Source: Nesterenkonia salmonea | GTDB taxonomy: Bacteria > Actinomycetota > Actinomycetes > Actinomycetales > Micrococcaceae | Assembly: GCF_005771525.1 (NCBI RefSeq) | Contig: NZ_VAVZ01000016.1 | Span: 1 to 64,000 of the forward strand | Reading direction: 5' to 3' | Length of the DNA: 64,000 nt | Shown here: piece by piece, positions 39,762-42,077 of the stretch | Numbering within the stretch: position 1 is the first letter of the stretch | How the letters are laid out: each line of letters starts with the position of its first letter | Notes under the pieces: model-generated | What the model saw: only the letters and a program-made list of their open reading frames with translations | Database searches by the model: none | Told to the model about the DNA's origin: nothing | Program-made: the position numbers and the translations under genes

Positions 39762-39838
39762 GCCGTTTTACCCTGCCTTGCTGGAATGACAAGGCGCTAT
39801 CGCGCGAGGTTTTCCTGATAAGGCAGGGTAAAAGCGGC
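39762..39838. repeat. Palindromic element A, left of the AbiEi-like gene
   Basis: The left arm GCCGTTTTACCCTGCCTT (39762-39779) pairs with AAGGCAGGGTAAAAGCGGC (39820-39838) with a single bulged base. The centre (39793-39805) is GGCGCTATCGCGC. The element is about 77 bp and shares the CCGTTTTACCC arm and the GGCGCTAT-N-GCGC-type centre with element B at 41105. It lies 40 nt after proS. It may also act as its terminator, although no T run follows. Confidence 0.8.
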
Positions 39839-39910
39839 GTGGGCTTTCAACTTATCCACACATTGCGATGAACTTCACTAAACACAACCAAATTGAGTCA
39901 TTCTGTATCT

Positions 39911-41068
39911 ATGGCCACAGTGATAAGAGCGTCGACGCGTAGCACTCTGCTGCAGGTGTGCGGCGCGGAGGATGACAATGCAGCGCACCGGCTCCGTCAC
40001 CGCGTCAACCGTGCGGAGCTCGTTAGGATTCGGCGCGGCTGTTATTTCTCCGCCTCCGATTGGCTGCGCAGCCCTCCTTGGGACCGGCACCTCATCGCGA
40101 CGGTGGCTACCGGGTTGGTTCGGCGGCAGGAAATCTTCTGCCGTGAAACCGCACTTGCCCTGTACGGGGTTCCGCTTCTGAAGACGCCCCAGGCTGTGCA
40201 CGTCAGGACAAACAACAATGGCCAGAGTGGGCGGCGTGGTCGCGCTGCCATCACCGGAGCTGCACCGAGGTCGTCGCTGGCCAGAACATGGCACCAAGCA
40301 TTCGGAGAGCAACCCAGCGGTGGAGCCTGGCTTCGCCGCTTCACAGGCGTGGACACCAAGAGAGTCCAGTACCCGCTGAAGTTTCGGGAAAGTCTGCGGC
40401 GAGGGCTGGACCCGCGGATCGCAGTCGACTACTCCGGCGCGTTGCAGCATCTCACACCCCCGCCCGGTGAGTTCTTTGACCCGCAGGGTATCCATCTCCG
40501 CACTGAGCCTCTGCCGTTGTGCGTGGTGGATACGGTGTGCCGTTCAGACATGTCGGCTGGGGTTGTCATTCTCGATGCTGTGCTCGCAGGCCGCCATACT
40601 GGCCGCAGCATGGAGCGCAACGCGTTCAATCCGTGGCTGCAGTCCATCCCTAGTCAGCGCGCGCATGCCAGGTGGCAACGCGCACTGGAGTTCGCAGACC
40701 CACTTTCCGAATCTCCGGGAGAGTCATTGTCACGCCTGCGCATCTCCCAGTTGGGTTTCGAGGTTCCCACGCTGCAGCAGGAGATCACGGTTGCAGACGG
40801 TACGCGGTACCGGACGGACTTCTTTTGGAAGGACGCCGGGGTTATCGGCGAGTTCGATGGCATTATGAAGTACACCCGTGCCAGAACCCTCGCAGGGTTG
40901 GCGGCAGCGGACGTGGTGGTCAAGGAGAAGACGCGCGAGCGGCGTATCGAACAGCAGGGCTACAGGGTTGTGCGCTGGGATTGGAACGATCTGCGCTCAC
41001 CAGAGCGGCTGCGGAACATACTCAGCGACTATGGCGTCCCACGCGCCGTTCAGGGGAAACCAGCTTGA
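39911..41068 (+). CDS. AbiEi-like / DUF559-type protein with predicted nuclease fold
   Basis: The 385-residue protein begins with a winged-helix-like segment ending NRAELVRIRRGCYFSASDW, the pattern of the AbiEi-type antitoxin regulator domain. The middle part contains the ETALALYGVPLL-like region common to such proteins. The C-terminal 110 residues resemble a Vsr/DUF559 PD-(D/E)xK nuclease fold: GESLSRLRISQLGF, RYRTDFFWKDAGVIGEFDG, then KYTRA and GYRVVRWDWNDL. The candidate catalytic residues are the D of RTDFF, the E of GEFDG and the following K. ATG 39911 is preferred over an in-frame TTG at 39893. No AbiEii-like toxin partner lies next to it. Palindromes A and B flank the gene. Confidence 0.7.
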   Translation: MATVIRASTRSTLLQVCGAEDDNAAHRLRHRVNRAELVRIRRGCYFSASDWLRSPPWDRHLIATVATGLVRRQEIFCRETALALYGVPLLKTPQAVHVRTNNNGQSGRRGRAAITGAAPRSSLARTWHQAFGEQPSGGAWLRRFTGVDTKRVQYPLKFRESLRRGLDPRIAVDYSGALQHLTPPPGEFFDPQGIHLRTEPLPLCVVDTVCRSDMSAGVVILDAVLAGRHTGRSMERNAFNPWLQSIPSQRAHARWQRALEFADPLSESPGESLSRLRISQLGFEVPTLQQEITVADGTRYRTDFFWKDAGVIGEFDGIMKYTRARTLAGLAAADVVVKEKTRERRIEQQGYRVVRWDWNDLRSPERLRNILSDYGVPRAVQGKPA

Positions 41069-41104
41069 ACGCGGACTGGGCGAGGGTCACGTGCCAGGGC
41101 ATCC

Positions 41105-41180
41105 CCGGTTTGACCTTGGCTTGTCAACTTCACATGGCGCTATAGCGCAGTGTCATGTGCACAAGCCTGGGTAAAACGGC
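41105..41180. repeat. Palindromic element B, right of the AbiEi-like gene
   Basis: The arms CCGGTTTGACCTTGGCTTGT (41105-41124) and ACAAGCCTGGGTAAAACGG (41161-41179) are imperfect complements. Inner CACAT/ATGTG arms surround the centre GGCGCTATAGCGC (41136-41148). Length and centre match element A. The right arm's GGGTAAAACGG is the reverse complement of the CCGTTTTACCC arm of A, so the two copies are related and oppositely oriented. It also lies between two convergent genes and might serve as a bidirectional terminator. Confidence 0.75.
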
Positions 41181-41200: not shown

Positions 41201-42077
41201 TCAGTCGGTTTCCTCCTCAGGTTCTTCGTCATCTTCCGACTCAGAATCGCCCTCAGAATCGCCCTCCGGCTCATCTTCTGACTCTTCCTCCGGTTCAGGC
41301 TCAGGTTCTGGAGCAACGATCTCCTCACCGGCCACAGCGGAGAGGATTTCAGCAGCGCGAGCTTCAAGTTCGGCTATTGCCTCCTCCTGCTCCGCATCCG
41401 GGTCTTCCTGTTCAGCGGCGAGAACCGTGTGAGGGCCCTGGCGCAGAAGGACGGTGAGGTCACGCTGGGTAGCGTCGGAGGCGTCCATCAGCCTGCCGAC
41501 TGCCAGGCCGTCCTCCGCACCGGTACGCACCTGCAACTCAGTCAGTGTGGTCTCCGCCCGCGCCTCGTCTTCTCCCAGGTCTCGGATGACCGTGTGTTCC
41601 TCGCACCGCTCTACGCCCAGGCGCTCTGAGTCCACATATTCGGCAGCGGCGGCGGAGTCTTCGAAGGTGTAGATCACCGTCTGAGAATCGCCGGACTCAG
41701 CGAGCGCGCCCAGGGCACCAGTGGGTACGGGCAGGGCTGAGGCGGTGACGAACGGCTTACAGTCGACCGGTTGGACCTCCAAGCGCTGCAGCTCGCGGTT
41801 GAGATCGCGCAGGTTCGGCCACCAGTCGTCAGTGTCAGTGATGGTCGCTGAACCCCAGCGTGTCCTCAAGGGCCTCCACCATGTCCTCGTGCGATACCTG
41901 CTGGCCTTGCGGTTCCGGGGCGGCGACCTGCGCCTCGGCAACAGAGCTATCGAGTGAGCCTCCGCCGAGTGGAGACCCCTCAGCCTCAGGGTCGTCTTCG
42001 CAGCCGGTGAGCGCGAGAGCAGCTAGCGGCAGAGATATCCAGATACGGGCATATTTCATCACGTCCAGTATCGCCAT
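41201..42077 (-). pseudogene. Lipoprotein gene with internal frameshift (possible PknH-like sensor domain)
   Basis: Two frames together make one plausible protein. The first, starting at 42077 or 42059, encodes a lipoprotein signal sequence with lipobox ALTGC and ends in TGA at 41835. The second continues from the region of 41860 to 41201 with a globular part (RDLNRELQRLEVQPVDC, LGVERCEEHTVIRDLG) and a highly acidic Glu/Asp/Ser tail of about 35 residues. Removing one base from the G4 run (CCCC at 41853-41856 on the plus strand) joins the frames as ...DTLGSATITDTDDWW. The outer domain vaguely resembles PknH-type extracellular sensor domains, which is uncertain. Either the gene is broken or the run was mis-sequenced. 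Confidence 0.65.

Follow-up and report, generated by a model that had tools for sequence, protein, structure and literature searches.

An AbiEi-like gene with a predicted Vsr-type nuclease end, bracketed by its own dispersed palindromes: a candidate nuclease-run palindrome system in actinobacteria

In the window, by which we mean the whole 64,000-nucleotide stretch of Nesterenkonia salmonea DNA that was analysed (contig NZ_VAVZ01000016.1), a single gene downstream of proS is enclosed by two similar imperfect palindromes, A and B. The arrangement raises the question of whether the gene and its palindromes form one mobile or dispersed unit with structured ends, or whether a gene has simply come to lie between ordinary host repeats. 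The unit is laid out as palindrome, box, gene and palindrome, with the following features:

39762..39838, no strand assigned: palindrome A, the upstream bracket (from alignment, folding and the family model)
39766-39773 and 39826-39833: outer half-sites of A, axis about 39799/39800
about 39785-39792 and 39807-39814: inner half-site places of A, from the 19-bp step of the family (letters decayed in A)
39852..39860, + strand: TTATCCACA box, lying 3' of palindrome A and 5' of the start codon
39911 (ATG)..41068 (stop), + strand: gene for a 385-residue protein (from the ORF, profile and predicted structure)
protein residues 7-263: AbiEi-antitoxin-like part (from predicted structure and AbiEi profiles)
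protein residues 268-377: putative Vsr/I-Bth0305I-like nuclease part (from predicted structure)
41105..41180, no strand assigned: palindrome B, the downstream bracket, of the same family as A by a reverse-complement match
41109-41116 and 41169-41176: outer half-sites of B, axis about 41142/41143

A and B gave an ungapped reverse-complement alignment of 76 bp, at 74% identity. GTTTTACCC was common to both and occurred at no third place in the window (0.10 expected; none of 100 shuffles reached two), and the centre GCGCTATNGCGC was also in common. Both elements folded better than dinucleotide shuffles on the two strands: z of -7.0/-7.4 for A and -3.6/-3.6 for B. The alignment, z-scores and shuffles bore out the original prediction that A and B are real imperfect palindromes with a common arm and centre. 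The centre motif was by itself uninformative (58 genome matches with at most one mismatch vs 80 for the reversed control), and its matches were retained, by eye, only where the arms matched too; no known RNA family came near threshold. The good folding of A is one point in favor of ordinary transcription terminators, or of unrelated host repeats flanking the gene by chance. On the other hand, no T run followed either arm in a terminator test of the A and B arms only, the right arms ending in GGGTAAAAGCGGC and GGGTAAAACGGCC, and some copies hardly folded.

The AlphaFold2 model of the window protein (pLDDT 89.9, pTM 0.88) was predicted to consist of two parts. Using VIA-align, residues 7-263 matched the AbiEi antitoxin 6y8q (Z 10.0, 170 aligned, 5.8 A), and residues 268-377 matched best the catalytic domain of I-Bth0305I (Z 10.9, 94 aligned, 2.4 A), with further matches to NGO0050 (Z 9.4) and Vsr (Z 9.3). 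Foldseek gave nothing at an E-value of 0.001 or better for this protein (best AbiEi row, 7.6e-3); AbiEi ranked second and I-Bth0305I sixth, all E-values being worse than 0.001, and a RAYT-type transposase was absent among the fold matches listed. At the sequence level, a PADLOC AbiEi profile matched residues 25-105 (E 5.9e-6), the PADLOC AbiEi model PDLC02225 matched 14 of 14 family members, and no match was found in NCBIfam or, up to an E-value of 1, in the PDB. Among 51 aligned sequences, the putative catalytic residues E271, D303 and K320 were invariant, and E314 and D316 nearly so. Against the N. haasae ortholog, dN was 0.12 and dS 0.76, which shows that selection keeps the protein. The next gene lies on the opposite strand, ends at 41201, and was taken from its sequence to be a lipoprotein gene; no toxin gene follows the nuclease gene. 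Its predicted structure therefore makes this a solitary AbiEi-like DNA-binding protein with a Vsr-type nuclease as its end. The AbiEi-like start, the nuclease end and the missing toxin partner had all been proposed from the window's letters and were supported, and of the proposed DUF559 likeness, the nuclease end stood on structural grounds, with a weak Pfam match under the cut-off (E 0.092) for the name itself. A third relative in the window genome (G000:C1:130814-131353, L172) is broken, with an internal stop, and has no bracket.

The pairing of palindromes with this gene was found to recur. In a first set of relatives (97 loci, merged to 81 distinct genes by grouping same-gene loci), the upstream and downstream elements passed the cut-off in 37 of 81, this cut-off being 39 of 72 bases, the 99% point of 1500 non-cognate pairs; the pairs of two genes reached 68 of 72 bases. 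Among 291 called genes used as a control (the window and 20 long loci, including a truncated N. haasae gene call below the cut-off), two passed, and both were from the same nuclease-gene family. This argues against terminators, as do the gene-specific letters found on both sides of the genes (see below). Passing pairs were also found in 22 of 29 class-wide loci (one failing locus duplicates a first-set gene) and in 27 of 30 Frigoribacterium rows, or 26 after the poly-G row L265 was dropped (several rows are orthologs, and one duplicates a first-set gene); search windows were 10-20 bp wider in these two tests than in the first-set and control tests. Since 37 of 81 genes are bracketed and controls pass only for this gene family, the proposal that the palindromes are structured ends belonging with the gene was upheld. 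As far as sequence comparison goes, palindrome-gene-palindrome is a general architecture, and the window unit is one case of it. Protein relatives were present in 141 of 197 genomes of the class (76 of 91 genera), with bracketing in part of them.

The remaining 44 first-set genes had no palindrome pair, and include a subfamily recognisable by its C-terminal end. L158, L166, L169, L171, L066/L162, L061 and L161 apparently form one such subfamily without a bracketing pair, and its comparison with bracketed relatives may reveal the residues that matter. At L056/L176 (G013), a masked stretch (N) lies within the palindrome. In ten class-wide units (L354, L356, L359, L360, L362, L363, L364, L368, L372 and L376), picked for outer ends ACGT or ATGT (CGCGT in one case), inverted letters run on into the flanks (TGATC/GATCA or GACC/GGTC); this gives a unit of ~1.2 kb with transposon-like ends, direct duplications being absent.

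A common geometry underlies these otherwise different palindromes. In 66 palindromes of 37 genes (mostly unlike sequences; those with fewer than 21 of 36 paired were left out), arms shifted by exactly 19 bp gave an autocorrelation of 0.496, vs 0.262 for shuffled sequence and at most 0.284 at other shifts, and the best 8-base left-arm match fell at shift 19, with at least 6 of 8 bases, in 38 of 66. The 19-bp arm repeat indicates a palindrome of four half-sites: two direct copies in each arm, mirrored. Taken singly, A and B did not show this repeat (their best 8-base matches, found at shift 13, reach 4 and 5 bases); the step was visible in the consensus of 25 A-type copies (TTTTACCC ... T.ACCC). 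A step fixed across unlike families is a further point against terminators. The half-site letters themselves varied: TTTTACCC in the window, TTTCAGG at the C53 paralog, ATGAACC in Frigoribacterium, and TGTCCCC, GATCGTCTC and TTCTGCACC in other Nesterenkonia. A general hairpin model over many families was dropped because the alignment of 59 unlike palindromes was too gappy.

Palindrome similarity was correlated with the identity of the AbiEi-like DNA-binding domain (53 bracketed genes; Spearman 0.41), and the partial correlation given the nuclease domain was 0.37, which none of 999 permutations reached (kinship ignored); that with the nuclease domain, given the DNA-binding domain, was -0.03. 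This set leaves out pairs with nuclease domains at least 90% identical and proteins outside 300-470 residues, and the middle domain was equally correlated (0.42). The half-site letters thus differ by gene and, on sequence comparison, track the AbiEi-like DNA-binding part.

Of 61 bracketed genes (near-identical orthologs counted in), 27 had a TTATCCACA-like box at the equivalent place, 3' of the upstream palindrome and 5' of the start codon, where 0.46 matches were expected in 7326 bp. One orientation prevailed, and the box, which we take to be close to a DnaA box, was missing from most Frigoribacterium genes at the chosen stringency. According to PMC7319586, AbiEi and Rv2827c repress their own promoters by way of 23-bp inverted repeats, two and four of them, to which they bind. 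Binding of the palindromes by the product of the enclosed gene would therefore be the natural reading, and the upstream palindrome may act as an operator. An autoregulated nuclease could be the whole explanation: the upstream palindrome would serve as operator and the downstream palindrome as another binding or end site, copies elsewhere would make up a regulon or act as decoys, and the protein would be a host regulator or defence nuclease, with no movement. The upstream boxes are compatible with such regulation, and the positions of the other copies bear on it directly.

A model built from five A/B copies matched ten loci in the window genome, brackets included, each on both strands (one further place with an E-value above 1 is left out). 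The original prediction had looked for more copies elsewhere as a sign of dispersal, and these were found in the host (eight further A/B loci) and in relatives, together with the C53 and Frigoribacterium families. The A/B model had matches in 7 of 30 genomes from the genus: 10, 8 and 7 loci in the three genomes with the orthologous gene, and one to three in the other four. The palindrome family of the C53 paralog had fifteen loci in the window genome, thirteen in N. haasae, three plus one weak in N. sphaerica, and none in two other Nesterenkonia. On a symmetric profile, 25 A-type copies (including eight profile seeds, plus orthologous sites) scored 34 to 90, vs at most -13 for shuffled sequence. 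The neighbouring genes are convergent for 8 of the 25, in tandem for 13 and divergent for 4, and the 21 in convergent or tandem settings are within about 90 bp 3' of a stop codon. This placement just 3' of stop codons is what terminators would predict; however, the four copies between divergent genes, together with the missing T run, led us to discard the idea that A and B are ordinary terminators, and this explanation in all its forms (chance host repeats included) is judged to be highly improbable. The same distribution is poor for operators, with 21 copies beyond stop codons and four between divergent genes.

In Frigoribacterium G040, 22 places matched the palindrome in full length (at least 89% identity over 55-72 bases), a count that takes in the two brackets, and two more matched in part; five genomes from other genera gave no match. 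Its twenty distinct copies had a common core of ~64 bp in flanks unrelated by eye. Variant copies were found in all three Frigoribacterium relatives searched: 16, 17 and about 11 places. Some of these palindrome sites were common to several species; when G040 copies were compared with 36 copies of the three relatives, both flanks were in common for 3 of 19 (two brackets included; repeated loci and three whose axis was unclear left out). For one dispersed G040 copy, with its partial neighbour, the corresponding place in G052 is empty: the two flanking genes adjoin each other there with no palindrome in between, and the best relative of the G040 gene in that genome is 35% identical. This could be a gain in G040 or a loss in G052; divergence of the spacer has blurred the exact ends. 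Neither such an empty site nor homogeneous, genome-specific copies are expected of a regulon. Therefore, despite the promoter-repressing relatives, the upstream box and the old element positions in Nesterenkonia described below, autoregulation without movement seems rather unlikely to us. In G051:C1 (L281-L317), fourteen dispersed copies cluster on the gene's side of a 3.7-Mb contig (Rayleigh, simulated p 0.002), which may reflect their distance from the gene or the origin; the contig begins with what looks like rRNA sequence and so gave no tie between the cluster and the origin.

The arms of 55 Frigoribacterium copies, at 84.5% paired, are maintained by compensating changes: 136 double-changed cells were counted vs 5-19 in slid controls, the copies being related and the cells not independent events; letters between the half-sites changed jointly in the two arms. 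Pairing in the A-type family was 63%, and columns 16-24, between the half-sites, were 0.24-0.56 paired. The hairpin is thus kept in the family where many copies are fresh and has decayed in the older family.

In N. haasae and N. sphaerica, too, the gene with both palindromes stands 3' of proS. Of the ten element positions in the window genome, nine have the same neighbouring genes in one or both of these species (one of the nine on a single flank; we assigned the gene names by reading their sequences). A recent insertion beside proS is contradicted by these findings, and the window unit is no recent insertion. In the Nesterenkonia comparison set (one genome of which is Garicola koreensis), G031, G010 and G037 each have one variant element, with a permease gene on one side, the lipoprotein gene next to the window's unit on the other and no nuclease gene there, and G015 has a fainter trace of an element at the proS-lipoprotein site, also without the gene. 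These site elements scored 9.6, 6.9, 0.4 and -4.1, respectively, on the profile, vs -12.9 or less for element-free loci. The solo elements contain four TTTACC-like half-sites, their ungapped arms pair at 15-17 of 36, and they were recognised by the profile and half-sites. G002 and G029 have palindrome, gene and palindrome at the window's site with different half-site letters, and G011, G017, G034 and G035 have both neighbour genes with neither gene nor element. Solo, bracketed and empty states are expected if the unit is lost by end-to-end recombination or gained at a lone element, and element-free relatives if the element, too, can be lost. The proposed comparison of the proS junction thus gave a divided answer: three gene-less relatives with one variant element and a fourth with a trace, and four relatives with neither gene nor element. 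Similarly, of the mobile or dispersed unit with structured ends, the ends matched to the gene and the further copies stood, and the recent insertion did not. Elsewhere in the genome, two A-type palindromes 1.3 kb apart (G000:C58:47909-49299) enclose a non-nuclease gene, which we read from its sequence as phzF.

A and B are therefore members of one repeat family, matched to the enclosed gene, and the sites appear to be both old and moving. A-type positions are mostly old and common to several species, so that movement there is slow or past. The unit may be vertically inherited, as far as place and records go: it has the same location in three species, and relatives on plasmids and phages are almost lacking. 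One relative was found in 72,556 plasmid records (31% identity over 45% of the query), none in 50,697 phage records, and none among 50 pattern matches in viral contigs. This limited spread is unlike that of a defence gene. Matches to PADLOC AbiEi models could nevertheless indicate defence by self-marking, in which the target of the nuclease would be incoming DNA, and copies of the palindrome across the host chromosome would hold or license the enzyme there; however, the window gene's neighbours are proS and a lipoprotein-like gene, with no defence genes visible alongside, and gene-matched palindromes and their dispersal demand an extra explanation. We consider this account improbable.

We favor, with reasonable but not high confidence, a REPIN-RAYT-like system in which a site-specific nuclease replaces the transposase. 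The AbiEi-like part would bind the half-sites, one subunit each, by analogy with AbiEi and Rv2827c, and binding at the upstream palindrome would repress the gene. Bound subunits may introduce nicks or cuts at a palindrome or close by, perhaps when it is extruded as a hairpin in replication. Repair of the break would copy palindrome sequence from site to site, homogenising the copies of a genome, and would sometimes seed new palindromes and now and then delete the gene, leaving one element. A Vsr-type nuclease by itself joins no DNA, and the copying would therefore depend on host repair, which is the weakest step. We infer the binding, cutting and copying by this protein from patterns in DNA and protein sequences. 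We judge to be about as likely as not a wider form of this nuclease-run reading, in which the units are widespread actinobacterial selfish or domesticated DNA: an AbiEi-Vsr nuclease would read a private four-half-site code and spread its palindromes by cutting and host repair, gene and code would co-evolve, each paralog having its own population, and the REPIN-RAYT life style would have arisen a second time independently.

Among the open-access PMC papers in the matches listed, judged by title and the start of the abstract (subscription papers lie outside), this system was not described, and it was compared with four known types. With the AbiE type IV toxin-antitoxin system, the window protein has in common its AbiEi-like first two thirds, and the unit has inverted-repeat sites upstream, of which an AbiE promoter has two or four (PMC7319586). 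However, no AbiEii nucleotidyltransferase toxin gene follows 3' of the window gene, so that this is not an AbiE operon, and the protein has a putative C-terminal nuclease fusion, and sites that match are found downstream of the gene and at other places of the genome as well. The Vsr-type homing endonuclease I-Bth0305I resembles window residues 268-377 in predicted nuclease fold and conserved catalytic residues, whereas the recognition part here is AbiEi-like. At the window's site, three relatives have solo elements and no gene, and the change may have run in either direction. Unlike with homing endonucleases, it is the palindrome that is dispersed here, and each palindrome family in the genomes we examined went with one gene. 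MITEs and insertion sequences also comprise short gene-free inverted-repeat elements, one gene-bearing unit and solo sites, but no transposase domain was found in the window protein, and the outer flanks of the ten class-wide units are inverted, not direct.

REPIN-RAYT systems, the closest in life style, are marked by an HUH/Y1 transposase (TnpA-REP) and a GTAG or CGTC tag at the stem foot. To our knowledge, the RAYT transposase is the sole dedicated enzyme among dispersed bacterial palindromes. No HUH transposase was found in the window protein, whose predicted AbiEi-like and Vsr/I-Bth0305I-like parts fill residues 7-377, and the tag was absent from the consensus of 25 A-type copies and from 55 Frigoribacterium copies (in other families, by eye). 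As enzyme and tag differ, the unit is not a REPIN-RAYT by membership; its elements are also different, being about 64-76 bp with four half-sites, and have genome-specific variants, as REPINs do. According to PMC8049555, RAYTs are single-copy and vertically inherited genes, and gene-free REPs lie between genes, mostly near 3' ends (PMC8049555 and PMC3733652); here, too, a chromosomal gene is flanked by palindromes, with gene-free intergenic copies mostly near 3' ends. Copy numbers are lower: 10-22 here vs 69-235 REPINs in E. coli (PMC8049555). The gene-plus-palindrome sets in related bacteria, each with its own code, suggest a DNA-spreading system run by a nuclease rather than a transposase. 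An enzyme unrelated to RAYT then accompanies its own palindrome population, with a constant geometry and letters free to change; the combination of a toxin-antitoxin-type DNA-binding protein with a homing-type nuclease offers a candidate job for the large AbiEi/DUF559-like gene set; dozens of natural protein-site pairs provide material for learning rules of DNA recognition; and the persistence of REP-like repeats becomes testable in a second system.
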